A stretch of DNA of 64,000 nt from Anaerohalosphaera lusitana (GTDB lineage: Bacteria; Planctomycetota; Phycisphaerae; Sedimentisphaerales; Anaerohalosphaeraceae): NCBI RefSeq assembly GCF_002007645.1, contig NZ_CP019791.1, forward strand, positions 2,170,001 to 2,234,000, written 5' to 3'. Position 1 is the stretch's first letter. Each line of letters opens with the position of its first letter. Under the pieces are notes generated by a model that worked only from the letters and a program-made list of their open reading frames with translations, did no database searches and was not told where the DNA came from. Shown here one piece after another: positions 45,701-63,327 of the stretch. Made by a program: the position numbers and the translations under genes.

Positions 45701-48629
45701 ATCGCAATTTAGTAGTCAATTCGTTGGCAGTCCATTCTCCCGGCAGCTTGAGAACAAAGTTATCGCCGATACGGTACCATCCGCTGAACCCTGAAAAGCT
45801 CTTCCAGTCAAATCTTGTACCAAGGTTCATGTCGTAGTATGCGTCTCCAAAATACATATGCGGAAATGCTCCGCCTGGAGTTCCGCCAAAGCCATTGTAA
45901 GTGTATACCAATTCATTACCGTCCAGCCACACCCATTCTCTTGGAAACCCCCTCGTCGTGAGGCCAAAATGAGTTCGCATGTAACGGTTGTTTGCAAGCT
46001 TGGTTTCCATCAACTGCTGCTCATCCTCTGACAAAATTGAAGCTATGTGTCCGCCCATGAATTGTGCAAATCGTTCAACCATATCAAACTCAACACCCGA
46101 TGCGTGTAAACGGGCATACGTCAAATCAGAAGCGGCATCATAGTACGCATAATCAAAAGAATAAGCTGAGGAAAGCACTTCAGGGATCGTTGTAGCCCGG
46201 GGTGTGAAAGTTACAGGCTTGTTATTCTCTATATCCATTAAAAATACATTGTCCACAAATTCGAGAGAGTTCGAATGAGGCCATGTCCATCCGCTATTGA
46301 AAAGGCAACTCTTGTAATATCCGATATTTAGTGTGCCCTGCGGCCTTAGCCGGTGGAAAATACAGTATCCCGCTTCTCTTGCATGGATTACCGGTGTTCC
46401 ATAGTCCTGCTCAAAATAGCAGTGATCAAGTGTTCCCATCCCGCTATGAATTTCCGGGTTGCGGACGGTGGTGTATTTCATGTTAGCGGTTCCCCCGTTA
46501 AATGTTATCTTTGTTGTCTGTCCTGCAACAAGATAGCTTGGAAACATGTTTACGGGTTTGTCTTGAGTGCCCTGAACCTCAAGCTTGCCTTCCACAACGA
46601 AGTAGCCATTCTGCGGACCAGGATTATAAGGATCATCGCTGACTGATCCAAATTGAATCTGACTTCCTTCCGCAATCGTTAGCGTAACTCCCTCTTCGAT
46701 CAGTACTGGTCCGCCGACAATCCAGAATTCATCTGAAGTTAAAGTCATATCCTGTTCAATTACTCGCGGTACGTTTTTGCCTCTCGTCACCACGTAATTC
46801 CAACGGCTTATTCTAGTGAAGCTTTCAGGGTTGTCTGGATCCCAGCCATCGTTAAAGGTTATAGTAAGTTCAAATGGAATCACATGTTCGTTCGGACAGT
46901 TCGGAGCCACTCTAAACACAAGCGGGTCATCGACACCTATGATCACTCCGTCCTGGTCATAAATGAGCCCGTTGTCGTACATACTCCATGGCCCCATTGC
47001 GGATATGCTGGACGTTCCGTCGATTATCTCGACATATGGGTCATCTATCATCGAACCCTGGGCGCGGGCACGTAAGGTCAAATCTATGTTCTCAGCCGCA
47101 CCACTTCGGTTGATCAGCTCGATGCCCATATGAATCGTTTCTCCGGCATCAACCGAACCGTCAGCGTCATTTTCATCGGATATCGCTGGGTCGTCAAAGA
47201 TCCAGTTGTCATACATAGTTACACCTGGGGTCGGCGGAGTCGTAACGGCAACATAAGCGTCACAAACTGTACCACTGCTTACGATGCTTGCCATCAAAAA
47301 CCGATTGGAATAAATGTCCCGCTGCCAGAAGAATGATCGAAGCAAAGCTGCTGTACCTGAAACCACAGGAGCCGCCATGGATGTTCCGCTCCATTCTGCA
47401 TAGCTGTTGTTCGGAAGCGTGCTTAGGATGGATTCGCCAGGAGCCATTATATCTCCTGGGTTTGAAAACCAGCTTTTTTCGCCGTCAGTATTACATGAAG
47501 CAACACCAATCACATAGGGATATTTGGCTGGGTAACAGGGAATTGGTGCGCTGTCGTTTCCGCTGGAGGCTACCAGAACCGCCTGACTCAGTGCGACTTC
47601 TAATGCATCGGTAATTATCTGGCTGTATTGATAACCGCCGAAACTCATGTTTATAACTTCCGCACCATTTTCAGTTGCATATATGATGCCCTCGGAGATG
47701 TCCTGAATAGTTAAAGTTCCCGTGTACTGAGCAGCACGAATTGCCATGATCTTGGTGTTGAATGCTGTCCCGATTATACCTTTGCCATTGAACGCCTGCG
47801 CAGAAATGATCCCTGATACGTGCGTTCCGTGCCCGTGCATATCCATGGGGTCACCGGAATGGCTGCGCGGGTCAGAAACCACGTTGCAGCCGTGAATGTC
47901 ATCGATAAAACCATTGTTGTCGTCATCGATCCCGTTGCCGGGAATCTCAGCGCTATTGACCCACATGCTAGCCTGCAGCTCTTCATGTGTGTAGTCAACA
48001 CCGGAATCGATTACTGCAACGGTCACGTCACTGTTTCCCCCGGCACAAATGCCGTTTGTGTTGATGTAGTTCCAGGTGGCCTGTATTTCTGCTTGAGTCA
48101 AATACCACTGCTCGGGGTACATTGGGTCTGTGGTTCCATCAGGTAGGTTCTCTATGGGTGGATCAAATCCCCAAGCCATCTTCCACTCATAATTCGGTTC
48201 TACGTATTCAATTGATTCATCTTTGGTGAGCTGTTCGATGAGCTGCTGTATGTCCACATTCTCGTCCGTGGAATAGTGATACCAGCGGCGTAGATTCTTC
48301 TTTTTCTGCTCAAGCCCGTTTCGCGAATTCAGTTTTGATATCTGCTGGCTTCCTTGCTTAAAGGCATGCTCAAATACTCCCCGGCCTTTTTGTAAGCCGC
48401 GGCCCTTGAGCTTTTCTTTTACTCTTGGACGGAGCGTTCGTGCTGATCTTTCAGTTTTGCCGGCTGACTTGACTTCAACCAGGGCAGATTCCTTGAATTT
48501 GATCAGAATCTCTCGCGGTTGGTAAGAGTCTTTGTACTGGGCTGAACCGCGTTCGGTGAGCTTGCCGGCTTTAGTTTGAGCGCAGATGGCGAACAAAACC
48601 AGCGACGCAATTAAGAATTGCTTAAACAT
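42744..48629 (-). CDS. Giant secreted subtilisin-like (S8) protease with dockerin-like tail
   Basis: The 1961-aa protein has a signal peptide (first about 21 residues), a prodomain (35-150) and an S8 catalytic domain with Asp208 (VIDSGVDYTH), His267 (HGHGTHVSG), Asn358 and Ser417 (SGTSMAAP). Then follow beta-helix-like and C-type-lectin-like regions (about 660-950), Ig/fibronectin-like repeats, an IPT/TIG domain (SVSPNTGSADGGTLVTLSGS), two cohesin-like beta modules and two dockerin-like Ca2+ repeats (DVNRNGLVSAMDASYILQ; DCRIDIADLLILGEAW). The last repeat ends in LLDFTQLANDW, a planctomycete-style C-terminus. It is probably exported to digest host or environmental protein. Its presence between CRISPR and the Ubl module is unexplained. 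Confidence 0.9.
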   Translation of the reverse strand: MFKQFLIASLVLFAICAQTKAGKLTERGSAQYKDSYQPREILIKFKESALVEVKSAGKTERSARTLRPRVKEKLKGRGLQKGRGVFEHAFKQGSQQISKLNSRNGLEQKKKNLRRWYHYSTDENVDIQQLIEQLTKDESIEYVEPNYEWKMAWGFDPPIENLPDGTTDPMYPEQWYLTQAEIQATWNYINTNGICAGGNSDVTVAVIDSGVDYTHEELQASMWVNSAEIPGNGIDDDNNGFIDDIHGCNVVSDPRSHSGDPMDMHGHGTHVSGIISAQAFNGKGIIGTAFNTKIMAIRAAQYTGTLTIQDISEGIIYATENGAEVINMSFGGYQYSQIITDALEVALSQAVLVASSGNDSAPIPCYPAKYPYVIGVASCNTDGEKSWFSNPGDIMAPGESILSTLPNNSYAEWSGTSMAAPVVSGTAALLRSFFWQRDIYSNRFLMASIVSSGTVCDAYVAVTTPPTPGVTMYDNWIFDDPAISDENDADGSVDAGETIHMGIELINRSGAAENIDLTLRARAQGSMIDDPYVEIIDGTSSISAMGPWSMYDNGLIYDQDGVIIGVDDPLVFRVAPNCPNEHVIPFELTITFNDGWDPDNPESFTRISRWNYVVTRGKNVPRVIEQDMTLTSDEFWIVGGPVLIEEGVTLTIAEGSQIQFGSVSDDPYNPGPQNGYFVVEGKLEVQGTQDKPVNMFPSYLVAGQTTKITFNGGTANMKYTTVRNPEIHSGMGTLDHCYFEQDYGTPVIHAREAGYCIFHRLRPQGTLNIGYYKSCLFNSGWTWPHSNSLEFVDNVFLMDIENNKPVTFTPRATTIPEVLSSAYSFDYAYYDAASDLTYARLHASGVEFDMVERFAQFMGGHIASILSEDEQQLMETKLANNRYMRTHFGLTTRGFPREWVWLDGNELVYTYNGFGGTPGGAFPHMYFGDAYYDMNLGTRFDWKSFSGFSGWYRIGDNFVLKLPGEWTANELTTKLRSQEALDYVTQADTGHFRFNAFLNKYWDPSLNNWMHIQAPGNNENIVTMKDNFWGTDSSTLIDYLIYDYYDDFTKAKVVYGQPPARGYESTYPFVDGLYINGQSALSIPEVGMGPTTFRVTFNRDMNTDPNNIPFVTFGPTSPYTDFVVKPIDNDNAGWIDARTWEGSFWVVPVTGDGYHCIRISGAVAADDPWLVTGHDVGRFRFEVKTMGILAMTLHATGREGRIELSWQQDDFDMLAGYNIYRSTTLDGTYEKINDTIIPVGREYFTDTDVVPAVPLYYKFTVLKTDYTESNYSNVASAAPLDTIVPEITHTPVFEAVGGTNLRITASASDNVTVESVTLYYRAIGEEVFRSLSMLNTSEGMWSASISGSAVVPPGLDYYITATDGISTVYNGTPALPHTVNVENAPSLNSVSPNTGSADGGTLVTLSGSMFQTGATVMFGTEQAVDVEYLSSSQIRCKTPSHDPALVDVKLINPDMTSCSLTNAFTFHDEQIVISLPEAVGDYGTIVTVPLTLADVQGLLAASCTIEYDSSILNISSVNKGGLIPDWSFTANTATAGEIRISTAGAASVSDTGDLAVIKFEIIAPPPATSPLTIHSSVLNDGTISHAVDNGSVIVNGLFGISGTVSYFNDLAGIPSTALTLSGVGNPIDTVSEGTGSYSMQDIPVGSYRLKPAKSNDAQEITAFDASLILQADAGLRTLSQNQQIAADVNRNGLVSAMDASYILQKAVDLISVPFPGSEEIWTFVPEEREFPLLNTDQPGQNFTGILVGDVSGNWSDSMAQQTMSDLNSNTDPSTAVSLTDKTYLPHENCTLPIHITFEDGTEIYSVDLTVQYDHSIFGTPIVTQGEMVGLNNFSFISNTAVPGTIKLALAGAQPMQYDGKMADIQFASGPLNCTPVTVELNEAKVNEGAVDVKKTNADLATTPYHSDFTKDCRIDIADLLILGEAWLNYNTNPVVDVAPLPNGDQKIDLLDFTQLANDWAQ

Positions 48630-49883: not shown

Positions 49884-50534
49884 TTACTCGGTTACACTGA
49901 TTTCCGCGGCAAGCAGATTCAACTGGATATCAGCTTCTGCGGGCATCTGCCGCAGGAATTTTGTAAATTGTGCAAGCATAAACCCGGCCGCTATGTTGGC
50001 ACAGTAGATGGTAGTCTTTGCGGTGCAGGCGCCCGCATACGCCCTCTGAGGCGTAAAAAGGGTCCGGGGGTAATGCAGGCGTGATGATTCGTCGGCAGCT
50101 GTTATTACCCTGAGACTCTCAGCGGTCATCCTGCCGTCGACAAAGAACGTGGATCTGTCTTTGACCGCCTGCCATATCAGCCTTCGTGTATGGATAGAGT
50201 CTACCGCACAAAACACACAGTTGCCGATCTCTCCGCTGCGTTTGAACCTTTGTTCGACCGATACTACCTCTAACTTGCTATTGATCTGCCTGCACAGTCC
50301 TGCGGTGGCCCTTACTTTGGGCTTGCCCAGATCGGCTTCAAAATATCCCTGGCTGGCAATGTTAGTTACTTCGATTAGGTCGTGATCGATCAATTGAAGC
50401 CACGGGATGCCCATAGCTGCAAGCTGTAAAGCTACCTGCCTGCCTATGGCTCCAACACCGATAACCGTTGCTCTGCAGGACGCAATCCGTTCTGCCGGAA
50501 CAATGTCCTGTTGTCTAGAATATCTCGGGTTCAT
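49884..50534 (-). CDS. E1-like (ThiF/MoeB-family) ubiquitin-activating enzyme
   Basis: The 216-aa protein starts at MNPRYSRQ, with the RYSRQ motif of E1/ThiF proteins. The adenylation domain has GVGAIGRQVALQLA (nucleotide binding, 26-39), acidic LIDHDLIEVTNIASQGYF (49-66) with the catalytic Asn/Arg region GKPKVRATAGL, and Cys-Thr-Ala-Lys (170-173) and Cys178 in the later part. E1 enzymes adenylate the Ubl C-terminus and often form a thioester. It lacks the large ubiquitin-fold domain of eukaryotic E1. Its ATG overlaps the JAMM gene's stop (ATGA), so they are translationally coupled. Confidence 0.85.
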   Translation of the reverse strand: MNPRYSRQQDIVPAERIASCRATVIGVGAIGRQVALQLAAMGIPWLQLIDHDLIEVTNIASQGYFEADLGKPKVRATAGLCRQINSKLEVVSVEQRFKRSGEIGNCVFCAVDSIHTRRLIWQAVKDRSTFFVDGRMTAESLRVITAADESSRLHYPRTLFTPQRAYAGACTAKTTIYCANIAAGFMLAQFTKFLRQMPAEADIQLNLLAAEISVTE

Positions 50535-51316
50535 ATGAACACCTCGCTTTCGTCGTCCCATAGATCAGGTCTTTGTGCCAGCTCATCCATAACCGAGCGG
50601 CGTGTTGCCGGATCGAGCGCCTCTAGCTGGTCGATCATATCATTTGAAACCACCAGATCATCCCAGAACTCATCATGTTCGGAGCCGGCAAGGTTCAGCG
50701 CATCGGCAGATGTTGACGCCCAGGGGATCTCGATGACGTTTTGTTCGTATTCAGCGTCCCAGCTGTCATGATCGGTTGGACCGAACTGACAGCCGTAGTC
50801 AACACGAACGGGAATGAGCATGTCAGCGCCTGGCCCCACATTAAAACGCAGCTTTGCAAAAGTGTTGTCGTCCTCTGCCAGTATGAACATGACCGCCCAC
50901 TGACAGGATCCAAAGACCCTTGCAAACGTCTCGTTGTCGGTGGCACTCGGTGTGGGTGAGTCGGATGGATGTGTATGCAGCCAGACGCGGGCGAACTGCT
51001 CGGGTCTTTTGCCAGCATCGACCTGCCTGTCAAAATAGTCCGCCACGGCTTCGTCATGGAAGCTGACAGTTACCGATGTTACCTGCTGAGTGATGGTGAC
51101 AAACTCTCTTACGTACAGCAGGTCATCGGTATCGGTGACCGCAAAGCCCGCCACCTCATTATCGCTTTTGTCGCGAAAATACAAAAGCTTTGCCCATGCG
51201 GTGGGGCTGAATCGAAGAATGGGGTTGAAATTTTTACTGCGTTTTTTCTTTTGATTTGATTTAACTGTTTTCGATTGTGATCTGGTCCTGGCTGTCGTTT
51301 TGTTTTTCTTGGCCAT
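50531..51316 (-). CDS. JAMM/MPN (JAB) metalloprotease, predicted deubiquitinase-like
   Basis: The 261-aa protein starts at ATG 51316 (AGGAG 8 nt upstream). After a basic tail the JAB domain shows Glu54 (DNEVAGFAV) and HTHP-x6-SxxD at 114-127 (HTHPSDSPTPSATD), the full zinc-ligand set of JAMM proteases. Such enzymes remove ubiquitin-like tags or process Ubl tails. The C-terminal 90 residues are acidic and unassigned. The start is embedded in the last 56 nt of the E2-RING gene. Confidence 0.88.
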   Translation of the reverse strand: MAKKNKTTARTRSQSKTVKSNQKKKRSKNFNPILRFSPTAWAKLLYFRDKSDNEVAGFAVTDTDDLLYVREFVTITQQVTSVTVSFHDEAVADYFDRQVDAGKRPEQFARVWLHTHPSDSPTPSATDNETFARVFGSCQWAVMFILAEDDNTFAKLRFNVGPGADMLIPVRVDYGCQFGPTDHDSWDAEYEQNVIEIPWASTSADALNLAGSEHDEFWDDLVVSNDMIDQLEALDPATRRSVMDELAQRPDLWDDESEVFI

Positions 51317-52280
51317 TTTCATTGCTCCTTTCTGCCAGGCAGTCCCGGCAAATATCTTCTCCAATACACTTGACGCAAAAGTTGTCGCCGCATTCCGAGC
51401 AGGTTCGTGTGCAGTCGGGGCATATGGTATCTCCACAGTCGATACATTCGTCCTGACACGATATACAGGCGGTGATCTGACGGCAGCACTGACAAAACAT
51501 TACGCAGCCCTGGCAAAAGTCGTAGCCGCAGAACTCGCAGTATAAGGTGTGATCGGGATCTGTGATAAAGCCGCATTCGTAGCAGGATATACCCTCCCAG
51601 TCCTCTATCGGTATGTACGGACTCTCAGGGTTGTAGACCTTGAGAATGCTTTCGACCATGCTGAAAAAATCAGCAAACCTTCCCTGCTCAAGTGCCTTTC
51701 GGATGGGGACGGTTCCATCGCCTTCGCAGACCAGCTCATTGCTGATATGCGGATGGGTTACGGCCGATTCCGAGGCGGCAGGATGCGGATCCAGGGCGGT
51801 GACATAGTATTTGCTGCGGTTGTCACTGCTCGTGAGCCCTTCGATGTACAGCGATATCTCAAAGGGCCCCAGATAAACCCCTTCAAGCGTGATCGGTGCG
51901 GTGGTCACAGAGAGAGTGTCCCTTGGCGGATCAAATCTAAAGCCGCCGCAGTCGGCTTCGATCTGATCGAGCTCTTCGATGAGCTGTCTGATAGTCGGTG
52001 TTTTTGTCCTGGGCGGTGCAAGCGTCTCTTTGTTTGCACTTATCCAGTAGTTAATCTCCAGGCAGAGCCTGTCGATTCTGCTAAGACATTTTTTTGCGGC
52101 CCCGTGCCAGCCCCTTACGGCGGCCAGCTCGAGCTTGTGCGAGTTTTTCATGATGTGTGCCGCCATATCCGCAAACCTCTGGGTCCTGTGCGATGTCTCG
52201 ATGAGCCTGTTGCAGCGGCCGGTGATAAGGGCCTGCTGGAGCCTGGCTGCGATTTTGAGTTTTTCTTTTGTTGGGTTCAT
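51261..52280 (-). CDS. E2-like domain fused to RING/treble-clef zinc fingers
   Basis: The 339-aa protein starts at ATG 52280 (AAGGA at 7 nt). Residues about 100-225 look like a ubiquitin-conjugating (E2) fold: strands ending YYVTALDPHP, then THPHIS, and Cys185 (NELVC), followed by helices ADFFSMVESILKVYNPESPY. In eukaryotic E2 enzymes HPNxxxxGxxC has the same order, with His at about -10 from the catalytic Cys; here H176 to C185. Residues 230-315 contain ten Cys pairs (CYEC, CEFC, CQGC, CPDC, CSEC, CVKC, CRDC) as in RING-like and treble-clef fingers. It would combine conjugating (E2) and target-choice (E3-like) roles. The homology is by motif and has not been searched. Confidence 0.75.
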   Translation of the reverse strand: MNPTKEKLKIAARLQQALITGRCNRLIETSHRTQRFADMAAHIMKNSHKLELAAVRGWHGAAKKCLSRIDRLCLEINYWISANKETLAPPRTKTPTIRQLIEELDQIEADCGGFRFDPPRDTLSVTTAPITLEGVYLGPFEISLYIEGLTSSDNRSKYYVTALDPHPAASESAVTHPHISNELVCEGDGTVPIRKALEQGRFADFFSMVESILKVYNPESPYIPIEDWEGISCYECGFITDPDHTLYCEFCGYDFCQGCVMFCQCCRQITACISCQDECIDCGDTICPDCTRTCSECGDNFCVKCIGEDICRDCLAERSNENGQEKQNDSQDQITIENS

Positions 52281-52303
52281 AGGTCTGTCCTTTCGAAAAA
52301 GAA

Positions 52304-52333
52304 GGGCACCTGCCCGCTGGTGAGCAGATGCCC
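52304..52333 (-). promoter_or_regulatory. Terminator-like hairpin between Ubl and E2-RING genes
   Basis: On the minus strand GGGCATCTGC pairs with GCAGGTGCCC around a 10-nt loop, followed by TTCTTTTTC and then the E2-RING ribosome site. It may lower transcription of the downstream genes relative to the Ubl. Confidence 0.65.
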
Positions 52334-52351
52334 CTGGTGAAGTTGACATTG

Positions 52352-52579
52352 TTACTTTGGTCGCGCGCCCTGGACCTTTGTCGGTGTAATCGTAATCCTG
52401 TCGTTTGGCTGGAGGATATAATCACGCGGTACCGGCTGACGGTTGACCCGGATCAGATAATCTTCGGGGCTGTCGGCCGGCATCTTCTTGTTGAAAAACT
52501 GCTCGACAGTCGTGTTTTCGCTGATGTCGATATAGTCGGCAAAGCCGCCTCCTGAGTTGTTTACATAGAGAATACGCAT
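52352..52579 (-). CDS. Ubiquitin-like (ThiS/MoaD-type beta-grasp) protein
   Basis: The 75-aa protein has the compact beta-grasp outline: an N-terminal strand (MRILYVNNSGGG), a helix (TTVEQFFNKK), and VNRQPVPRDYILQPNDRITITPTKV, which matches the RVNGE.VPRDT.L.DGD.V...P pattern of ThiS/MoaD. The C-terminus is VQGARPK, not GG. Conjugation would need trimming after Gly71, perhaps by the JAMM protease. Ribosome site AAGGG lies 7 nt upstream. The next genes are the E2-RING, JAMM and E1. Confidence 0.78.
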   Translation of the reverse strand: MRILYVNNSGGGFADYIDISENTTVEQFFNKKMPADSPEDYLIRVNRQPVPRDYILQPNDRITITPTKVQGARPK

Positions 52580-52729
52580 TGTTTGTCCCTTTCATTTTTG
52601 GTTCTTCAATTATTAGTAAATGTCCTTTTTGCTCCCGTAACTTTGTCGGTCTGCTGTCGGCGGACCGCGCGCAGTGGCAGCTGTGTGTGTCATAATTTGA
52701 TTGTTCCTTGACTTAACGAGATTTGACGG

Positions 52730-53590
52730 TTATCCGTTTTGGGATGATTTGAACATCTCAGGCGCGATCTGATCGAGCGTTGTGGGCCTAAAGTACAGAT
52801 CCCGCTCGACCGGCAGTCCCAGAGGACCGCGAAGTTCTTCGAGCTCTTGGAGGCTTATATAGCCCAGCTCCTTGCAGTGACCCTCTACCAGGCCGAACAT
52901 CTGGTAGTCGATGACGTTGCCTGCCCTGTCCTTTACCGGCTCGGCTTCGAGTATCCACCAGGTAAAAGATGAGTCGGGTGTAAAGAGCTTGCAGTGTGCC
53001 AGGGCCTTGCCGCCTTTGCCGTCCTGGCTGCCTAAAGGAGGCAGTTTTTCACGAAGATCCTCTGTCAAAAGCTCCATGCCCCGGATCCTGTTGTTGGCCT
53101 GTGCCCTGGTCGATGTCTTCTCGGTTGCTGTGAGTATCTCGGCTGTGCTGCTGACAAACTCCGTGAGGTTTTGGTTCTGCTCCTTGCGATCGATCGGATC
53201 GGATTCACAGGCAGGTATAGGTCTTGTCAGAAGCTCGACCTGGTCGGGATTGAGTTCTATGACCACCCGGCCGTTGTCCTGGGAATACCACTCAAAGTAC
53301 GGGTACTCGACATAGTCGGCCGGCTGCAGCCCTGCGGTCATGTCTCCCGCCTTGCCTTTCTGGGTCATAGAAAAGCCCTGCATTCTGCTCGTTGCTTTGC
53401 CGCGATCGCATGCTTCTCCGTCACCGCGAAGCAGTACCTTTGAGCCCCTGATATCCCTGTGGAAATTGCCGTCCAAATCAAAGGTTACTTTTTCCTCGAT
53501 ACCGGCAAACTTCATCCAGCCGGTGATCTTGCCCTGTCGTGTGTTGTCCAGTACGCCTTCAATAAATTGTTCATTTGGTCTCCATGCCAT
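52730..53590 (-). CDS. DUF2958-domain protein with unassigned N-terminal domain
   Basis: The C-terminal 115 residues match the plasmid/ICE family DUF2958 (GMELLTEDLREKLPPLGSQ, CKLFTPDSSFTWWILEAEP, FGLVEGHCKELGYISLQELEEL, GLPVERDLYFRP). The N-terminal 170 residues are beta-rich and unrecognised. Start ATG 53590 after AAGG. It leads the Ubl operon, 150 nt upstream of the Ubl gene. The role of DUF2958 is unknown; it is a marker of conjugative or mobilisable plasmids. Confidence 0.8.
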   Translation of the reverse strand: MAWRPNEQFIEGVLDNTRQGKITGWMKFAGIEEKVTFDLDGNFHRDIRGSKVLLRGDGEACDRGKATSRMQGFSMTQKGKAGDMTAGLQPADYVEYPYFEWYSQDNGRVVIELNPDQVELLTRPIPACESDPIDRKEQNQNLTEFVSSTAEILTATEKTSTRAQANNRIRGMELLTEDLREKLPPLGSQDGKGGKALAHCKLFTPDSSFTWWILEAEPVKDRAGNVIDYQMFGLVEGHCKELGYISLQELEELRGPLGLPVERDLYFRPTTLDQIAPEMFKSSQNG

Positions 53591-53669
53591 TTGTATCACC
53601 TTACCTTTCTTTTTGCGTTTTAGTTTTTCGTTTTCGTTTCAGTTCTGCTTTGCTTCTTGCTAAATAACA

Positions 53670-53703
53670 AAGGCACATCTGCCGCTTTGAACAGATGTGC
53701 CTT
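53670..53703. promoter_or_regulatory. Long perfect hairpin upstream of DUF2958
   Basis: AAGGCACATCTG and CAGATGTGCCTT form a 12-bp perfect stem around a 10-nt loop. The loop flank (TCAAAGCGG on the minus strand) and stem are similar to the hairpin at 52304-52333 (TCACCAGCGG), so it may be one repeated RNA or protein-binding motif. Confidence 0.55.
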
Positions 53704-54086
53704 ACGAGCTGATCTTTGAGAATAGATCCTGCGTTTACTGCATAAGTTTCCTTTCGAATAAGACTGTTTGACGGAACAAAGAAACGACTATGTAAATCCG
53801 GGACGGTTGACGTTAGCCCGGTCTGGACGCGGCTTTTGCGCAATGGCCGGCATTTGATCGTGATGGCTCTTGACCCTGGCAGGCCCGCTCTTTCACGCGG
53901 CGGCTCTTGCTAAAAAGTGTGATCAATGAAATGAACTGTGTGGTGTAAAGACGGCGATCTTTATAAGGTTTTCGGTTCTGCTTTTTGGGCAAAGCTGACA
54001 GAACCGGGATCCGGAAAAAATTACAAAAAGCACTTGCGCTCTTGCCTGCTTTGCGCTAGGGTGGGGCATGAAAGGAGGTGATAACA
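53704..54086. other. Intergenic region with no convincing gene
   Basis: Short open frames occur here but none has a ribosome site. The region probably contains the promoters of the DUF2958 operon (minus) and of the small membrane zinc-ribbon gene (plus; TTGCGC about 54029 and TAGGGT about 54058 are a weak candidate). Confidence 0.4.
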
Positions 54087-54377
54087 GTGAATCTTACCCT
54101 TAGAAAATTTTTAGTAGTCCTGTTGATCGCGGCCGTGTTGGTGCTGGGCAACATCGTGGTCATAGCCCACTGGCTGGACGAGGTCGGTGTTTCGCCGCTG
54201 GCCGAAAGGATCAGTGACGATTTTTTGACGCCTACCGCGGTTACCATAATATCAGCCCTGTTGATACTGCTAGTTGGTCCGTCTCGCCACGCAGGCTCGA
54301 CCATGTCCTGCCCGGTATGCCGAAGCCGTGTGAGAAGGGCTGATAAGTACTGCCCGGAGTGCGGGAGCAGGATTTAG
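54087..54377 (+). CDS. Membrane protein with C-terminal zinc ribbon
   Basis: GTG 54087 is preceded by a perfect AAAGGAGGTGAT ribosome site. The 96-aa product has two hydrophobic helices (about 8-28 and 48-64) and a zinc ribbon (CPVCRSR, CPECGSR). It is a lone plus-strand gene among minus-strand operons. Function unknown. Confidence 0.75.
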   Translation: MNLTLRKFLVVLLIAAVLVLGNIVVIAHWLDEVGVSPLAERISDDFLTPTAVTIISALLILLVGPSRHAGSTMSCPVCRSRVRRADKYCPECGSRI

Positions 54378-54502
54378 AGAAAAATTAAAAGGGGCAACCC
54401 TGCTAATAGCAATATAGCCCGAACAGATGCAATGAGCGGACCGGAAAATCAGTATGATTTTCTAAATAAAATATTTTGCACATGCCCCGAATGAAAAAAG
54501 GA

Positions 54503-54919
54503 TTAGAGTTTGCCGGATCTGTTCAGCGAGTAGTAGTGGCTTTTGTTGAAGATAACATGATCGCAGAACCTGATCTTTAATAGATCCGCCGCCTCGCGTA
54601 TAGCTCTTGTGGCCTGGAGGTCCTCATCAGAAGGATCCAGGTGGCCGGAGGGGTGGTTGTGTGCCACCAGAAAGCCCGCAGCGTTATCGAGAAGTGCTTT
54701 TTTGAAGATTATCCTCGGATCCATGATAACGGTGTCGATGCCGCCTTTGAACAGCACCTCTGCCGAGATCACCTGCTGTCTGGCGGTGAAGGTCAAGATC
54801 AAAAAGTTTTCCTGGTCAAAATCGATGTCGATCGATGAGACCCTCTCAAAGACCATCGCGGGGCTTGTTATGGCCCCGGCAGGTTCTTTTAGATGGACTA
54901 TCTGCTTCACGCCGACCAC
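54503..54919 (-). CDS. RadC-like JAB/MPN protein
   Basis: The 138-aa protein is the catalytic part of RadC without the usual N-terminal helix-hairpin-helix. It has Glu54 (AEVLFKGG) and HNHP-x6-SxxD (HNHPSGHLDPSDED, 87-100). RadC is common on plasmids and genomic islands, but its substrate is unknown and it is not a proven repair nuclease. It is the last gene of a four-gene minus operon. Confidence 0.88.
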   Translation of the reverse strand: MVGVKQIVHLKEPAGAITSPAMVFERVSSIDIDFDQENFLILTFTARQQVISAEVLFKGGIDTVIMDPRIIFKKALLDNAAGFLVAHNHPSGHLDPSDEDLQATRAIREAADLLKIRFCDHVIFNKSHYYSLNRSGKL

Positions 54920-56045: not shown

Positions 56046-56790
56046 AATAGGGGCCGGCGGCTCGTGAGCGGACCTTTCGATAAAGGTTTGACCCGAAGGG
56101 CAAAGCTTTACGATAGAAGGTCTGCGTGAGCAAACCGGACAAGCTCTTTGAGAGTTTGAAATGAAAAAGGAATTGAAATTGAAAATGAAAATGAAAAAGC
56201 GAAATGTTTATAAACATGCAATAAAATGTATACAAATAGAAAAATGCAAACCCGATGCAACCCCGCAAAGGCATTTTTGTTCCGACATCTCGATGAGGAT
56301 GCAAAAGATGAGATTGATAAATCTCTCAGATCAAGATCATTTCCCGAAACAAACGAGGAAATGCTAACGCTAACATCTAATTCTGACCGAAAGCTCAACA
56401 GGCTGCTGGCAAATACCAGCAAAGAAAACCTAAAAAGGTTCGAGCCCTCAGCAGCTAACAACGAAAATCAGCAATACTGAATATGCTGACAACGACCACA
56501 GGATCCAACTGATTCTAAACTGCAAATATGCAGAAAAACAAACAGATGAAAAAAGCAAAGCAAAACAAAGCAAAAAAGACCCAACGCATAAACTCCGCTG
56601 TGCGGACGAAACCAGACAGTGAAACGATAACACAAAAACAGACAGTCCAACCTCTAACAAAACCAGACACCGACAAAAACCAGACACCAAATACAACACT
56701 AAAATCAAAAACCACCCCACCCCCACATTCAATTAAAATGGTCGAAAGTGATTCGTAAGTCCTTGTCTTTAAAGGATTAAACTGATTAAA
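56046..56790. other. Low-complexity, A- and C-rich strand-biased region
   Basis: The region between the divergent operons is unusual. From about 56520 to 56740 the plus strand is rich in A and C with few T, and carries three copies of AACCAGACA (56610, 56661, 56678) and other short runs such as AAAGCAAAAC. Near 56160 there is a purine-rich GAAATTGAAAATGAAAATG repeat. Short open frames here have no ribosome site. It may be an origin-like or leader region. Confidence 0.4.
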
Positions 56791-56889
56791 GTGATTCGGG
56801 CCAAAATCGGACACTGTTACTTCCGGACAGTGCTCAAAAAAACGAAAGATTTAAATAAATGCAGTGTCTACTTTCAAGTAGCAGCAAAA

Positions 56890-57414
56890 ATGCAGGTGAT
56901 AAGAATCGACTATGCCAACCCGAACTACATGTCCCCAAACTATGTCCCGGAGTATCTGCACCAGGCAGTGCCGGTGTATCAGCAGGGCTGTTATAACAGT
57001 GCCTGGTCGGTCGATGATATCGTCAGTTCTCCGACGACAAGACCGTCTGAAAATAGTGAGGAAAACATCTTTGCCGACAAGCAGAAAACCTCTTATCTGG
57101 CCCTTGAAAATATCGTGGCTCAGATCCGAAAAAGGTACGAGATTTACGACTCTAACATCCGTGTTCTCGAGTACAGCAAGATCAAGCTCAAGGAGCATTT
57201 TTACCAGTGGCCCCAGCAGCTTGGTCTCTGGCCGCCGGGTCATAAGGAGATGCTTTCAGAGCAGATGAACCAGCTCTATCAAAAGCAACTCGATGAGAAG
57301 GTCAGCCTCTGGAAGGACGTTTCGAAACTAAAGCTGATGCTGCCCCAGTCGCTCAACGACTATCTGAGCATCAAGCGAAAATCGGACATATATAGTGGGG
57401 GTGTTCCGGACTGA
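56890..57414 (+). CDS. Hypothetical helical protein upstream of the HerA-like ATPase
   Basis: I prefer the internal ATG 56890; an open frame also begins at GTG 56791. The 174-aa product has a long helical segment (IRKRYEIYDSNIRVLEYSKIKLKEHF) and no recognised domain. It lies 26 nt before the HerA-like gene and is probably co-transcribed. It may be an adaptor of the ATPase. Confidence 0.55.
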   Translation: MQVIRIDYANPNYMSPNYVPEYLHQAVPVYQQGCYNSAWSVDDIVSSPTTRPSENSEENIFADKQKTSYLALENIVAQIRKRYEIYDSNIRVLEYSKIKLKEHFYQWPQQLGLWPPGHKEMLSEQMNQLYQKQLDEKVSLWKDVSKLKLMLPQSLNDYLSIKRKSDIYSGGVPD

Positions 57415-57440: not shown

Positions 57441-59525
57441 ATGCGGCTAAAGCCGATACTGGGTAAAAAGATAGACTCGCTCTGGAAGGCCTACCTGCTC
57501 TCGGAGGGCAGGGACGAGAAGGCGGATATACTGCAGACTCTTGAAATCCTCGCCGAAAAACACCTCGGCTCATCGATCGACAACTCATCGGATCCTTTCC
57601 CGCCGCCTGATAAGGGTTCGGTTGCCGCCGGTGATATAGAGCTTGGGACAATCCGGTATGCCGGCCGCGATATATCACCTTTGAAACTCAAATCAGACAG
57701 ACTCAAAGAGCACCTTCTTGTCGCCGGCAGAAGCGGGTCGGGAAAGACCAACCTGACGTTCGTTCTTGTCGACAGTGTCATTCGAAGCGGTATAAAGGTA
57801 CTCGCACTTGACTGGAAGAGGGGATATCGCGATCTAAAGCAGGTGCATCCGGATTTAAAGGTCTATACGGTCGGGCGTGATATTTCTCCTTTCAGGTTCA
57901 ATCCGCTGATACCGCCGCCGGGCTGTGAGCCCAATATATGGATCAAGCTTATCGTGGATGTGATCGCGGATGCATACCTGGGCGGTGAGGGAGTGATAAG
58001 TCTTCTTGTCAGCGGACTTGAGCATCTTTACAATGAGTTCGGAGTCTATGAAGGGATCGGTCCTAGGTGGCCCACGATAAAGGATCTGCTCGGCTGGCTC
58101 AAAAATGCAAAACTCAAGGGAAGGGCAGCTCAGTGGCAGGCGTCCGCTCAGCGTATCCTGATGGCGATGACCTATGGTGAGTTCGGCAGGGTAGTCGAGA
58201 CCCAGGACAACAGCGATATTTTAAAACTGCTCGATGAAAACTGTGTGCTGGAGATGGACGGGCTCTCTGCCAATACCGATAAGGTGATGTTCTCAGAGGC
58301 CCTGGCGCTCTATGTTTATCGCCACAGACTCGCCCAGGGTCCAAGGGATAAGCTGACCAATCTCCTGGTCATAGAGGAGGCACACAACCTCCTGCACGCC
58401 AAACAGGCAGGATCCAGAGAGTCGGTCCTGGAAAACTCAATCAGGATGGTGCGCCAATACGGACTTGGATATGTGTTCGTCGATCAGTCGGCGTCGCTTT
58501 TGAGCAAGGTGGCGTTTGCAAACTCTTATGCAACGATTGCACTGAGCCAGAAACTGAGATCAGACATCACCTCACTGACCAGCGCAATGAATCTCGACGA
58601 CGATCAAAAATCTGCCCTTTCCCAGCTTGAAAGGGGCGAAGCGATAGTAAAGATCGCAGACTGCTCACCCAGGCCGTTCAGGGTCAAGCTGCCTCTTTTC
58701 GAAATAACGGAAGGTGAGATTACCGATGCGATGCTCAGATCCGACCGCGACGGCGATTCCGCCCGGTCCGGTCAAACCGGGGGCAATTCTGCCGGGTCCG
58801 GGGCTGTTTCGGACGGTCCGGAAAAGGAAAAGGAAGTTGATAAAATATTGAAGATACTCGACGAGATAACAGCTTCCCACCCACCCGCGGACCAGGAAAA
58901 AGATAAACAGTCGCATTCAACGGAACAATCCCACCCACCCTCCATGATAATGACAAGAGAGATGATAAGGTTTCTGGACGATATAGTGCAAAGGCCGTTG
59001 AGCTCGACTGTAAAACGATATAATCGCCTGAGGTTTTCAAGGCGCAGGGGAAACGCCATCAAAAAAGAGCTTACAGCAGCCGGGATCATAGACGCCGTCT
59101 CCGTTCCCACCCGCACCGGTCAGGTGGTCCTTTTACAGATATCCGACAACGCCCGGGGCCTGTGCATCCGGGAGGGGATATTCCCGCCTCGCAGGCGAGA
59201 GAGCATCGAACATCTTTTCTGGAAGGAAAAAGCAAAAGAGTATTTTGCCGACCTTGGCTATGACGTCTCGCTCGAACACTCGGTCACAGACAACGGAGTC
59301 GTCGACCTTGTCGCCAAAAATCACCGCGAAAAAATAGCAGTCGAGGTCGAGACCGGCAAATCCGACATAGCCGCCAACATCAAAAAGCTCAGTGATACTG
59401 ATTTTGATAGACTGGTGCTCGTAGCGACGAATGCGTCGGCGGTCGATAAGATTGACAGGGCGATTGCCGGCTGTGATAACCCGCGGGTGCCGATTGAACG
59501 TCTTTGCTGGCTCGATATTTCATGA
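57441..59525 (+). CDS. HerA-like ATPase fused to a PD-(D/E)xK nuclease-like domain
   Basis: The 694-aa protein has Walker A (GRSGSGKTNLTFV, 96-108), a large ATPase core up to about 420 with Walker B (LLVIEEAHNLL near 305-315), a Ser/Gly/Glu linker, a winged-helix and a C-terminal fold (about 585-690) with RESIEHLFWKEKAKEYFADLGYDV, NGVVDLVAKN and VEVETGKSD. The Asp and E-V-E-T-G-K fit a PD-(D/E)xK-type nuclease site. The paralogue at 29701 lacks these residues. DNA-pumping ATPase plus nuclease is typical of conjugative or defence machines. It overlaps the convergent gene at 59389 by 137 nt. Confidence 0.82.
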   Translation: MRLKPILGKKIDSLWKAYLLSEGRDEKADILQTLEILAEKHLGSSIDNSSDPFPPPDKGSVAAGDIELGTIRYAGRDISPLKLKSDRLKEHLLVAGRSGSGKTNLTFVLVDSVIRSGIKVLALDWKRGYRDLKQVHPDLKVYTVGRDISPFRFNPLIPPPGCEPNIWIKLIVDVIADAYLGGEGVISLLVSGLEHLYNEFGVYEGIGPRWPTIKDLLGWLKNAKLKGRAAQWQASAQRILMAMTYGEFGRVVETQDNSDILKLLDENCVLEMDGLSANTDKVMFSEALALYVYRHRLAQGPRDKLTNLLVIEEAHNLLHAKQAGSRESVLENSIRMVRQYGLGYVFVDQSASLLSKVAFANSYATIALSQKLRSDITSLTSAMNLDDDQKSALSQLERGEAIVKIADCSPRPFRVKLPLFEITEGEITDAMLRSDRDGDSARSGQTGGNSAGSGAVSDGPEKEKEVDKILKILDEITASHPPADQEKDKQSHSTEQSHPPSMIMTREMIRFLDDIVQRPLSSTVKRYNRLRFSRRRGNAIKKELTAAGIIDAVSVPTRTGQVVLLQISDNARGLCIREGIFPPRRRESIEHLFWKEKAKEYFADLGYDVSLEHSVTDNGVVDLVAKNHREKIAVEVETGKSDIAANIKKLSDTDFDRLVLVATNASAVDKIDRAIAGCDNPRVPIERLCWLDIS

Positions 59526-59868
59526 GCTTATCTCCCAGGTTGGACCGCCAGTTCTTGCGGTAAATATCTTCGGGGTAGACGAACAGGGCCTCGAGTCCGT
59601 TGGCCCTGTAGAGTTTTTTCTTCTTGGCTATGCCCCTGTCGTAATCGGGATCGTTTTTGATGCCTGCGTATTCCAGGATCAGGCCGTTTTTACCGCCCAG
59701 CCGAAAATCCGGGTACCATACCCTGAGCTTGCAGTTTAAGTCGTAGACCATTGTCGGCGGTTCATATTGAAATCTGATCCGCTGAGAGCTCAGATAATCG
59801 GCGATTCTCTGCTCCCCTTTGGATCTGTAGCTGTTCTTTTGTTCGTTGGCTGTCTTGTATCGAATCAT
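59389..59868 (-). CDS. PD-(D/E)xK-type nuclease-like protein
   Basis: The 159-aa protein has SKGEQRIADYLSSQRIRFQYEPP, WYPDFRL (Asp54) and LILEYAGI (Glu66), the spacing of small endonuclease-like domains related to Vsr/DUF559 families. The final 40 residues are polar and unstructured and lie antisense to the 3' end of the HerA-like gene. It follows the coiled-coil membrane gene with overlapping ends. Confidence 0.65.
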   Translation of the reverse strand: MIRYKTANEQKNSYRSKGEQRIADYLSSQRIRFQYEPPTMVYDLNCKLRVWYPDFRLGGKNGLILEYAGIKNDPDYDRGIAKKKKLYRANGLEALFVYPEDIYRKNWRSNLGDKLMKYRASKDVQSAPAGYHSRQSPCQSYRPPTHSSLRAPVYQNQYH

Positions 59869-60941
59869 CGGTTATCACCTTTTATTTCCTGTTTTGTGTA
59901 ATTTCTGCTCTGGCTCTGTTCAAACTGATCGTATTGTCCGATCAGCTTTTCTTTACTGCGCTCGATCACGGTTTCGAGCTTCTGGTTGTGCCGCTGGAGT
60001 CGCCTGGCCCTATCGAGCATCCTGATAAGACCTGCAGTGTCTCCGGCATTTAAAAGCTGGATGGATCTGTTGAGACAGTCCCTGACCCTTTTCTCCGTCT
60101 CGGCGACCGCGTAGTCGAGTCTTTCAATGCGGTCATCGAACTTAAGCTCTTTGTAGGCCTTTTTCATGTTTGCTGCGACTGCGGCTCTTTGCTCGGGCGG
60201 CGTACGCATCAGGCGCATGCGGAGTTTTTTTATACGCTGCAGCTGGCCGTTCTTTACGAAGGCCGCTTGCTTCCTTAACCGGGCCATCTGATCGGTCAGT
60301 GCAGAGGTTTTGGGCAAAATATCCTCGATCTGCCTCTGCAGTTGGCCAATATTCTGGGGATCGTTTTCCAGGCGGGTTGAATTTTGCTCCGCCTGGCAGA
60401 TTTGCTTTTCTATGGATGCGCTGAGCTGTGCTGGTTGTCGCTGTTTGTCTGGACTGCTTTGAGGCGGTGTTGACTGAGGATAAATCCTGGGCTGGCCGTG
60501 ATTTGTCAGGACCATGTATAACGCTGCAGCGACTATTAAAAAGGCCACCAGTGCGATCAGGTCATGGCTGATGGGCGGATTAAGGCCCGGTGACAGGGCC
60601 GTCACCAGGCAGACCCCAAACGATAACATGGCCGCCGGTAAGCTTCCGACCACCTGCCTGAAAACACCGAAGATCACAACGGCGATGACAACAGCAGCGA
60701 AACTGACCGCCAGAGGACCGAGATCTGCAAGACTGAAGTTGTTTGCGCTTTGCCAGAAGGTAAGCGATAGAGAAAGTGCCAGGCCGATTGCAGTGCTTGC
60801 CGCGGCAGCCGGACGGTGGTGATTGAGTCTGCGGCTCAGTACCGCATAACAAACAGATGTAAACAGAGTAAACGATATCACAAAGTCCGTCCATAGACTG
60901 TCGGCAAGCAGCCAGAAATCATCCGGCAGATACAAAGGCAT
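59865..60941 (-). CDS. Membrane protein with long coiled coil
   Basis: The 358-aa protein has about five membrane helices in the first 150 residues (18-36, 49-63, 74-93, 101-117, 126-145) and a long helical coiled coil (about 170-345, rich in Gln, Arg and Lys). No family recognised. It is divergent from the Orc1-like gene and overlaps the nuclease-like gene by 4 nt. It may anchor or organise the DNA machinery at the membrane. Confidence 0.65.
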   Translation of the reverse strand: MPLYLPDDFWLLADSLWTDFVISFTLFTSVCYAVLSRRLNHHRPAAAASTAIGLALSLSLTFWQSANNFSLADLGPLAVSFAAVVIAVVIFGVFRQVVGSLPAAMLSFGVCLVTALSPGLNPPISHDLIALVAFLIVAAALYMVLTNHGQPRIYPQSTPPQSSPDKQRQPAQLSASIEKQICQAEQNSTRLENDPQNIGQLQRQIEDILPKTSALTDQMARLRKQAAFVKNGQLQRIKKLRMRLMRTPPEQRAAVAANMKKAYKELKFDDRIERLDYAVAETEKRVRDCLNRSIQLLNAGDTAGLIRMLDRARRLQRHNQKLETVIERSKEKLIGQYDQFEQSQSRNYTKQEIKGDNR

Positions 60942-61018
60942 AAACGCTAGGGGGACGGGGCTGGTTTAAATAGTTTTTGGTGTTGCTACTTTCCCGATAC
61001 ACGAAAACATTAAAAAAG

Positions 61019-61051
61019 CCGCGGTTTACACGTACCCCGGAGTTGATGCGT
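61019..61051. repeat. Repeated boxes A and B before the orc gene
   Basis: Box A CCGCGGTTTACACGT (61019-61033) and box B ACCCCGGAGTTGATGCGT (61034-61051) are adjacent and end 2 nt before the ATG. Copies occur beyond the 3' end: box B' at 62151-62168 (one mismatch) and inverted box A' at 62260-62274 (one mismatch). Confidence 0.65.
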
Positions 61052-61053
61052 AC

Positions 61054-62163
61054 ATGGATTTAACCGAGTATGTGCAAAGACAAAAACACGTCGTCGCTCA
61101 ACAGAGCAGGGCGGTCAGGGACTTTACGGTCTTTGACTACAACTACATCCCGGAAAAACCGTTTATCAGAAGCGAATCAAAGCAGATCATCGATGCTATG
61201 CTGCGGTTTGACGTTTCCGGCATTGCGACTAATTTTGCGGTCATAGGCTCTAGAGGTTCCGGAAAGACGCTTACCATGAAATACCTGGCCAGGGTCGTTC
61301 CGGCCCAGACCGATCTTAGCATGCGGTATGTCAACTGCCGGCATCACAATACCAGCTTCAAGATACTCGCAAGGCTGCTCAACAAGAGGTGTACTGGCCT
61401 AAGTCTCGACAAGCTCTTTGAGATGTTCAGTGAATCGATCACCGGCAAAACGGTCTTCGTGCTGGATGAGGTCGATCTTATGAGCGCAAAGGACAAAAAC
61501 CGCGACATCCTCTACCTGCTCAGCAGAAGCGAAAAGCCTGTTATGGTGATAATGCTCTCAAACAATCCGCATCTTTTAAGGGAGCTCGATGCGGCTTCTA
61601 AAAGCTCGCTTCAACTGGTGCAGATGCATTTTGCCAATTACAACGCTGAGCAGATAAACGCTATCCTGCTGGAGAGGGCACAGAAGGGTCTTGTCAGTTA
61701 CGACTATACAGAAGTCTCTGAAATCGCGGCAATGACCACCAAAAAGACCAACTCCGATACTCGGGTTGCGATAAAGACGCTTTACTATAACGTCACCGAA
61801 CCGCAAAAGTCGGTCGAGTCGTGCTTTGAGAATGCCCGCAAGGACATCGTCATCGATGTAATAAACGATCTGTCCGATCAGAACCTGTTAATCCTCACTG
61901 CCGCCGCACAGAATAAATCCGATCTCACCAAGAACATTTATGACCTGTACTGCAGGTTGTGCCGCAGTCAGTGTGAAAAGCCCTTCAGCTATGTTTACTA
62001 TTATTCCAATCTTGGCTACCTGCAGTCGATTGGGCTGATTGCGCTGGTCTCGACGAAATTCGGCAGGACGTATACCAATCGCGTGGTCCTAACCTTCAAC
62101 CACAGCATCCTCTTCGACACCTGTCGGCTGAGGTTTTCAAGAGTACCCGCACCCCGGAGTTAA
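61054..62163 (+). CDS. Orc1/Cdc6-like AAA+ replication initiator
   Basis: The 369-aa protein has the archaeal Cdc6/Orc1 layout. P-loop GSRGSGKT (65-72), Walker B VFVLDEVD (134-141), sensor 1 (LSNN, 168-171), a sensor-2-like SDTRVAIKTL (234-243) and a C-terminal winged helix (270-365). In archaea it binds origin boxes and loads the helicase. Bacterial elements rarely carry such a protein. The gene is bracketed by boxes A and B, and its stop codon lies within box B'. Box positions suggest autoregulation or origin function. Alternative: a DnaC/other initiator-associated AAA+; the motif order favours Cdc6. Confidence 0.8.
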   Translation: MDLTEYVQRQKHVVAQQSRAVRDFTVFDYNYIPEKPFIRSESKQIIDAMLRFDVSGIATNFAVIGSRGSGKTLTMKYLARVVPAQTDLSMRYVNCRHHNTSFKILARLLNKRCTGLSLDKLFEMFSESITGKTVFVLDEVDLMSAKDKNRDILYLLSRSEKPVMVIMLSNNPHLLRELDAASKSSLQLVQMHFANYNAEQINAILLERAQKGLVSYDYTEVSEIAAMTTKKTNSDTRVAIKTLYYNVTEPQKSVESCFENARKDIVIDVINDLSDQNLLILTAAAQNKSDLTKNIYDLYCRLCRSQCEKPFSYVYYYSNLGYLQSIGLIALVSTKFGRTYTNRVVLTFNHSILFDTCRLRFSRVPAPRS

Positions 62164-62168
62164 TGCGT
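62151..62168. repeat. Box B' overlapping the orc stop codon
   Basis: ACCCCGGAGTTAATGCGT differs from box B (61034-61051) at one base. It is flanked by CCGCAC / GTGCGG, a 6-bp inverted repeat. Confidence 0.6.
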
Positions 62169-62339
62169 GCGGTGATATTAACATAGCGTTGATACATTAA
62201 ATTGATGCAGCATAGAATGATTTAAATCAGCAGATACACACAGCCATAAGTAAAAGCTGACGTGTAAACTGCGGGGCGGGTCCTAACCTCTAGCTTTGAT
62301 GTTGAAGAATATTCATAGGGCTTCACTGGGAGCAGTTTG
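62164..62339. other. Candidate origin flank, AT-rich
   Basis: The region from the orc stop to the decayed acyltransferase gene is AT-rich, especially about 62175-62250, and contains box A' (62260-62274, inverted relative to box A). It has no gene. It may be the element's unwinding region. Confidence 0.4.
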
Positions 62340-62783
62340 ATTGCATCTTGTTCTGCCATCAGGCATCATCTGATCCGCTCGGTGATATCTGCGATGAACC
62401 TGCGAACTTGGCTGTATGCTTTTGGGCCTGCTCTGGAACATCGTATTTCCCATCAACAAGGAAATGTGGACCAGTTCGTTTACCGTCTTCACTGCTGGTC
62501 TGAGCTTTCTGCTGCTCGCAGTCTTCTACAGCATTATCGACGTGATAGGTTTTAGCCGATGGGCTTTCCCCTTTGTTCTCATCGGCCTCAATGCCATTAC
62601 CATTTATCTTGGTGCCCATCATGCAATCAACTTCGGCTACACGACCAATTTCTTTTTCGCAGGTCTAGTAAACAAGGTCGGTGGGGCAACTGGGGCCATT
62701 TCATTTGGGCTTTCGGTTTCATCCTTATTGAACTAACGTTCTTGTACGTGCTCTATAAAAAGAAGCTATTTTTGAAGGTCTAG
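62340..62783 (+). pseudogene. 3' remnant of an acyltransferase-like (DUF5009/HGSNAT-type) membrane protein gene
   Basis: The frame encodes LLGLLWNIVFPINKEMWTSSF and IGLNAITIYLGAHHAINFGYT, the C-terminal membrane part of the DUF5009/heparan-alpha-glucosaminide acetyltransferase-like family. A frameshift near 62690 moves the true C-terminus (FGFILIELTFLYVLYKKK) into another frame. The N-terminal half is absent. A gene for the same family begins at 63328 and is apparently intact. Confidence 0.7.
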
Positions 62784-62937
62784 GGCACGAAGGTGTGTAT
62801 TTCCTGGGAAGTTTCTTGTCGGATGATTGACAGCTCTGAGTAATAGCCATTGGTGAAGCCCAGGGAGGGAAATGTTAGAAATATTTTTACAGGATAGTGA
62901 ACGACAGGAGTTTTTTGAAGGTGTAAACTGCAGGTAT

Positions 62938-63157
62938 GGACGATATTACACTTTCAAGACGTGATAACATTGTGCGGGCGATCCGCTTTGACGGGACCGA
63001 GTATATACCGATGACGTTCCATATCAATGAGGCCTGCTGGGAGCATTATCAGGCGGAATTCCGGAAGAGCTTATGGTGGAGCATCCGTTTATGTTCCTCG
63101 AGGCATGGAGAAAGCAGTCTCGGCCGTAATTGGGACAGCAGATGCCTGAGTAGATAG
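62938..63157 (+). pseudogene. Remnant of a UroD-like gene
   Basis: The first 40 codons resemble a UroD-family start (SRRDNIVRAIRFDGTEYIPMTFHINEACWEHYQ), but a frameshift follows; the continuing sense (EELMVEHPFMFLEAWRKQ) lies in another frame. The rest is missing. A full-length relative is at 751-1854. Confidence 0.6.
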
Positions 63158-63327
63158 ACAGGTCTCATGTAGATCCGCTTGGCTGCAAGTGGGAGACGGC
63201 GGTCCTATGACTCTTCTTGTTTTCAGAGTTGGTTCCAGTCGGGGATTGAAAGCATCTGCTCGGACTTTTTACCGTGGTAACCTAAATAACCAGGACACAA
63301 ATAAAACCAACTGGAGTTCAAAGATAA

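Follow-up and report, generated by a model that had tools for sequence, protein, structure and literature searches.

An Orc1/Cdc6-like gene and a putative archaeal-type origin in the chromosome of a planctomycete

The window analysed here is a stretch of 64,000 nucleotides from the chromosome of the planctomycete Anaerohalosphaera lusitana. Towards its 3′ end lies an Orc1/Cdc6-like gene (orc, encoding the protein P0001) accompanied by four copies of a sequence box, two of which converge upon an AT-rich stretch. This is probably the replicator–initiator module of an archaeal-type replicon, now located in a Phycisphaerae chromosome; binding of the boxes, melting and origin activity are all inferred. 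The results below establish the homology of the protein, how the boxes are conserved and arranged, the AT richness of the stretch that they enclose, and the linked module with its patchy spread. The original prediction, of an Orc1/Cdc6-type gene beside an ORB-like origin, stands as the best reading. Bacteria normally start replication with DnaA, and origin recognition is among the sharpest divides between bacteria (DnaA) and the archaea and eukaryotes (Orc1/Cdc6). No paper on Orc1/Cdc6 origins in Planctomycetota was found in the open-access literature searched; subscription papers and preprints were outside the scope of the search. The features of the locus, in window coordinates, are as follows.

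49884–53599 (−): ThiF (E1-like), JAB, cysteine-rich and DUF2958 genes, common to other orc contigs
56890–57414 (+): module gene F4, with a BRE/TATA-like element at 56842–56858; the start is our choice (the ORF call starts at 56791)
57441–59525 (+): HerA/DUF87-type ATPase gene (Pfam DUF87; family F2, present in eight loci)
59389–59868 (−): nuclease-like gene, weakly similar to phage endonuclease I/Holliday junction resolvase
59865–60941 (−): conserved membrane protein gene, divergent from orc, with no Pfam family
60963–60983 (−): BRE/TATA-like promoter serving the membrane gene, its TATA centred 27 nt ahead of the ATG
61002–61018 (+): BRE/TATA-like element of orc, CGAAAACATTAAAAAAG, its position kept in homologues
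61019–61033 (+): box A (upstream box 1), CCGCGGTTTACACGT, 15 bp, centred 18 bp before box 2
61034–61051 (+): box B (upstream box 2), ACCCCGGAGTTGATGCGT, 18 bp, ending 2 bp before the orc ATG
61054–62163 (+): Orc1/Cdc6-like initiator gene, 369 aa, AAA+ ATPase with a putative C-terminal winged-helix region
62151–62168 (+): box B′, 17 of the 18 bases of B, left arm of the convergent pair
62169–62259 (no strand): AT-rich stretch between B′ and A′, candidate duplex-unwinding element, AT 0.68 against 0.50
62260–62274 (−): box A′, inverted, 14 of the 15 bases of A, right arm of the convergent pair

P0001 carries the motifs GSRGSGKT (65–72), VLDEVD (136–141) and N-S-D-x-R (233–237). Its Walker A, Walker B and sensor-2 arginine are invariant in a five-row alignment, and have been aligned to 2qby. 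The best PDB match of a five-row profile of the protein is Sulfolobus Orc1-1 (2qby_A, E = 1.1e-29), with an alignment that reaches position 353. The NCBIfam model TIGR02928 matches with E = 1.2e-38 and 132.9 bits; because this falls under the curated cut-off of 181.3 the protein is termed Orc1/Cdc6-like. Pfam Cdc6_C is also below its cut-off (E = 0.002, 18.5 bits; cut-off 25.1). The AlphaFold model is weak, with a mean pLDDT of 59.5 and values of 28–42 at 321–350 in the putative winged-helix region. Foldseek with this model ranked 2qby first, a result that thus merely agrees with the sequence match. The closest plasmid match is the Cdc6-type protein of Picrophilus oshimae pPO1 (29% identity over 93% of the query); archaeal chromosomes were outside the search, so a closer archaeal relative is not excluded.

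The host is bacterial, its class (Phycisphaerae) being judged by its relatives. A profile search of its genome (labelled G000), in which orc is single copy, gave two matches to the DnaA C-terminal domain. The orc island is ∼105 kb from the point opposite dnaA, and the sampled GC skew was too noisy to add more. TBP was sought in G000 alone, where none was found; no TFIIB was found across 17 host genomes, nor any MCM of replicative type among the 17. The matches to PF00493 are generic AAA background, the best being partial and scoring 40 bits, and the same family matches 14 controls including E. coli; a real MCM in the hosts was therefore rejected. Three side observations concern the genome at large. 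The second DnaA C-terminal domain match is at G000:C1:471401-471607, besides that at 1096. The sequence CCCCGGACTTGATCCG is repeated at G000:C1:1121757-1122291 as four copies ∼150–195 bp apart, with scattered copies at other sites. Window positions 42744–48629 (−) encode a 1961-aa subtilisin-like protease with TIG, cohesin and dockerin domains.

Archaeal contamination or mis-binning of contigs might be suspected, since most relatives of the locus are MAG contigs, several of them short, and one is labelled Actinomycetes. This explanation is very unlikely. The window is part of a single 4.25-Mb contig that bears DnaA (99.96% complete, 0.7% contamination), and none of the 17 genomes has TFIIB. 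Moreover the GC3 of orc tracks that of each host over the range 0.39–0.94 (r = 0.93, Spearman 0.83, n = 16; host values are from short samples of 2–89 ORFs). The module has been long resident in bacterial hosts.

A single motif, (G)GAGTTWAYRCGT, underlies both box A and box B, which are variants of it. All four boxes had been predicted from sequence alone, and their positions and mismatches held fully. Box B′ overlaps the TAA stop codon of orc at 62161–62163, and A′ starts 97 bp past it. The pattern of box B (≤3 mismatches) matches three times in the window against 0.04 expected, a number reached in 0 of 100 shuffles, and the exact 16-mer core of B is found in the whole 4.25-Mb genome only at the B and B′ sites. 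Taken by itself, box A does not reach significance there: the window has 5 matches with ≤2 mismatches where 6.9 are expected, and box A owes its significance to the homologues. The prediction would have been refuted by absence of the boxes beside close homologues; this was checked and the boxes are present. Two further features need correction. The CCGCAC/GTGCGG flanks at B′ are real but are not kept in homologues, and were rejected as part of the box. The 11-bp piece of box A at 62921–62931 is a real match, but it is not part of the origin. A partial duplication (∼795 bp, 90% identical) contains it, in the intergenic leader of a URO-D-like gene, and the other copy of the duplication also carries such a piece just outside the window (genome 2234603); as the leader of a duplicated host gene it was rejected as an origin box.

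The duplication itself comprises window positions 62408–63201 and genome positions 2234094–2234886, directly after the origin, and spans the end of an acyltransferase-like gene and the start of the URO-D-like gene. Elsewhere in the window, the highest motif score (22.6) belongs to an extra box, CGGAGTTTATGCGT, at 56584–56597 (−). It adjoins an A-rich stretch at ∼56150–56580, 4.4 kb upstream of orc, and has no clear partner. Conceivably it is half of another origin.

Twenty loci were reoriented for comparison, a near-duplicate (G349b) being dropped from enrichment counts. The exact core GTTWAYRCGT occurs 25 times in 7,501 bp of orc flanks, compared with 7 times in the other 240,300 bp of these 19 loci. 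Using a matrix built from 56 sites and a score threshold of ≥12, a box is found just before the orc start in all 18 loci of this lineage (lineage 1) that have upstream sequence; G364 and G275 lack the 5′ end and are not included. Wherever both upstream boxes are recognised in homologues they are 18 bp apart, and runs of G or C often abut the boxes. Box and promoter motifs were first spotted by eye in the very loci that gave the enrichment counts; the independent tests are the held-out loci and the host DNA background. The held-out set is six close homologues (L104–L108 and L110) found after the matrix was fixed. Five have a box scoring ≥12 before the start, while the sixth (L106) has the exact core at a lower score. 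Host DNA contains 14 matches of this strength in 387,670 bp. Neither an upstream box nor a convergent pair was found for the distant homologues L109 and L050.

The repeated boxes adjoining the initiator gene, including an inverted pair, satisfy the criterion for an ORB-type origin. In 13 of 18 non-redundant lineage-1 loci with the gene end present there is a convergent pair, the first box pointing right and the second left. Eleven of these are just past the stop codon, that of G325 is 664–783 bp past it and that of G158 ∼1 kb upstream. No pair was seen in the available DNA of the remaining five (Zod827, G214, G055, G027 and G263); on the contigs of G214 and G055 just ∼300 bp remain. Three of the six held-out loci have the pair. 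The predicted AT-rich stretch between B′ and A′ also held: it is 68% AT compared with 50% in its 20-kb locus, and only 0.7% of locus windows of equal length are as AT-rich. The bracketed stretch exceeds the locus mean in 12 of the 13 pairs and is within the top 5% of the locus in 11, the exceptions being G141 (8%) and G158 (48%, no enrichment). A TATTGAAA/TATGGAAA-type motif lies within the bracketed stretch in 11 of the 13 pairs; the TATTGAAA-type motif is absent from the window's own stretch and from that of G158. Identification of this internal motif as the Sulfolobus ucm was rejected, as the oligonucleotide given in PMC12141716 does not match.

A mechanism can be proposed by inference. P0001 would bind the repeated box (G)GAGTTWAYRCGT as Orc1 binds ORBs. 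From the convergent B′/A′ pair it would be loaded onto the AT-rich DNA between them and melt it, so starting replication. The two phased boxes, which follow the TATA-like element and precede the ATG, would let it repress its own gene. Since no real MCM was seen, the recruited helicase would be the bacterial DnaB or an unknown one.

The inverted A and A′ bracket 1.25 kb, and could in principle be the terminal inverted repeats of a small transposon carrying orc. This is very improbable, and was rejected: there is no transposase, and in homologues the layout is not kept, the boxes varying in number, orientation and distance while the neighbours are conserved on both sides. A second alternative is that P0001 is a site-specific regulator derived from an Orc1 initiator, with the boxes serving as operators and no start of replication. 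In favour of this, two boxes with a fixed 18-bp phasing separate the TATA-like element from the ATG, and Sulfolobus offers a precedent in Orc1-2, an Orc1 that serves as a regulator and not as an initiator (PMC9738581). However, convergent boxes around an AT-rich stretch with a common internal motif are the layout of an origin rather than of an operator, and the pair remains convergent hundreds of base pairs from orc (+664/+783 in G325). No regulon is visible, because the exact B cores of the genome all flank orc. We regard the regulator as unlikely, and retain the replicator–initiator reading.

By the criteria applied the locus probably works like an archaeal replicator (its origin activity being inferred), yet is not a canonical ORB origin. 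In 19 of 20 lineage-1 loci the 700 bp to either side of orc contain no site of the canonical form TTCCASTGGAA, and the lineage-1 boxes fail the canonical ORB criterion (CTTCCAGTGGAAACGAAAGGGGT; PMC4153887 Table 2). The archaeal layout invoked in the original prediction held, but in a bacterium and with boxes that are not the canonical palindrome.

Promoter-like elements accompany the boxes. In 16 of 17 loci the BRE/TATA-like 17-mer of orc precedes the start by 52–59 nt, and in G358, where the start is uncertain, by 39 nt; leave-one-out scores exceed 10 in 15 of the 17, and are ∼5 in the other two. Ahead of the membrane gene the TATA centre is at −27 from the ATG in eight loci, −26 in one and −28 in one (10/10), and no Shine–Dalgarno-like motif is present in the last 20 nt before the gene in any of the ten, that of the window included. 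Strong promoter matches not belonging to orc (score ≥15) number 19 in 227.8 kb of orc loci, compared with 3 in 240 kb of host DNA (background from G000 alone). Counted from the start site, the Pyrococcus BRE occupies −36 to −32 and the TATA box −30 to −23 (PMC6640164), and by this spacing the membrane gene fits a leaderless archaeal promoter. The fit to an archaeal-type BRE/TATA promoter depends on the gene being leaderless, which is a possibility inferred from the sequence with the start site unmapped. A bacterial sigma factor might read the same AT-rich site as a −10 box, and this is not excluded.

The gene families that recur around orc are F8, F4, F2, the nuclease, the membrane protein, orc itself, F3 and F5. 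The nuclease-like gene scores 26.1 bits in Pfam, under the cut-off, and matches PHROG 945 with E = 7.7e-8; the best NCBIfam match of the HerA/DUF87-type gene is the archaeal DNA translocase CedD, far under the cut-off. PADLOC and PHROGs gave no useful lead on the function of the module genes. The ThiF/JAB/DUF2958 cluster is present in four contigs, and a tyrosine recombinase also in G372. Together with a RadC-like gene the ThiF, JAB and DUF2958 genes span window positions 49884–54919, a set that we take to recall PRTRC-type plasmid genes; relatives of DUF2958 are found on Nostoc and planctomycete plasmids. In L028 (6725) and L029 (7450) the origin is followed by a small zinc-ribbon gene whose leader, CGTCYCGTGAGGTGAT, is conserved and might fold into a short hairpin.

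orc sits in a patchy, island-like module with the appearance of a mobile element. Of 397 genomes of the class, 18 have lineage-1 orc (E ≤ 1e-20; the distant homologue G030 and some fragments are included). Among 392 genomes of the phylum it was found in six more, not counting the window's own (E ≤ 1e-15; G482 is distant). The membrane gene is found in 21 of the 397, 12 of them among the 18 orc genomes (Fisher p = 1.8e-13). No phage record carried orc, none of 23 candidate viral contigs was confirmed as carrying it, and 0 of 16 contigs tested were circular. The named relatives of orc are Phycisphaerae, Sedimentisphaerales and Planctomycetes MAGs, plus one labelled Actinomycetes. A genome search placed the last (L027, JAUXAG010000006.1) in the class of the window, and its label is probably an error. 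Between the two orc copies of G349, 61 of 363 codons differ synonymously and 16 non-synonymously, and the relatives are under purifying selection.

The window's genome lacks F3 and F5, which most relatives have downstream of the origin, and host genes begin within ∼150 bp of A′; the module may therefore be a resident island here rather than a free plasmid. It could even be a decayed relic, a former replicon whose copy here no longer fires. The origin is at the edge of the island, with F3 and F5 gone and a host-gene duplication next to it, and the AT-rich stretch lacks the usual motif. Against this, the orc reading frame is intact (369 aa), the four boxes are all well preserved, and the relatives are under purifying selection; the match to host GC3 cannot distinguish live from dead orc copies. 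On balance we lean against a relic, without being able to dismiss it, and continue to favour a replicator–initiator module.

A second Orc1 lineage shares this setting. In G307 and G272, which have the membrane gene and no lineage-1 orc, the divergent neighbour is another Orc1/Cdc6. This lineage 2 accounts for six of the nine genomes with the membrane gene and no lineage-1 orc. It is found in 16 of the 397 genomes, seven of which also have lineage 1, so that 27 of 397 have one or both. Lineage-2 loci (L136 and L151–L162, from other Phycisphaerae) resemble those of lineage 1 in the divergent membrane gene and BRE/TATA-like sites. They differ in having canonical ORB palindromes in place of the GAGTTWAYRCGT box. 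Their Orc1/Cdc6 is above the cut-off (for L136, 211.1 bits against 181.3 for TIGR02928). The palindromes in front of lineage-2 Orc1 are TTCCACTGGAA, canonical archaeal TTCCASTGGAA boxes corresponding to the archaeal ORB core (PMC4153887 Table 2). Sites with ≤1 mismatch are upstream in 7 of 11 loci, compared with 6 strand-counts in 387,670 bp of host DNA. Palindromic sites were counted on both strands, L156 was left out and the start of L152 is wrongly set; sites at −5 overlap the start codon.

The two pairings of Orc1 and box beside one common gene are natural swaps for the specificity of initiator for box. If an initiator–box–DUE unit is kept by selection beside DnaA, the recruitment of a bacterial helicase by an Orc1-type protein becomes testable, and archaeal-looking promoters in bacteria make their reading by bacterial RNA polymerase testable too. 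A bolder reading is of a trans-domain replicon family long resident in Planctomycetota, with archaeal replication signals (Orc1 together with ORBs or ORB-like boxes) and archaeal-type BRE/TATA promoters, some of them leaderless. We offer this only tentatively, as less likely than not. The hosts have no MCM, no TFB and (in this genome) no TBP; if the reading is true, either archaeal-looking signals drive a bacterial helicase and RNA polymerase or archaeal and bacterial hosts alternate.

Amongst known systems, P. oshimae pPO1 (NC_016049) likewise has AT-rich DNA enclosed by two inverted boxes at its origin, and a similar piece occurs where its orc starts, at the ATG. The likeness of the boxes is weak; the top motif match in the plasmid is an origin arm, but 25 of 100 simulated sequences equal it. 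At Sulfolobus oriC1 (Orc1-1, with ORBs around the DUE; PMC12141716) the initiator gene also adjoins the origin, and opposed boxes surround an AT-rich stretch with a short common motif between them. There the motif is ucm, which is needed in vivo (PMC12141716). The planctomycete locus differs in its bacterial host with DnaA, its box sequence, the lack of MCM and an internal motif that is not ucm. The haloarchaeal origins adjacent to orc/cdc6 genes (PMC3528665) belong to another domain, and have a long G-string that the planctomycete loci lack. They are alike in that each orc family has its own box family, and in that the boxes may stand on either side of orc or on both. Haloarchaeal origins have spread with extrachromosomal elements (PMC4010727), a further likeness to the planctomycete module.
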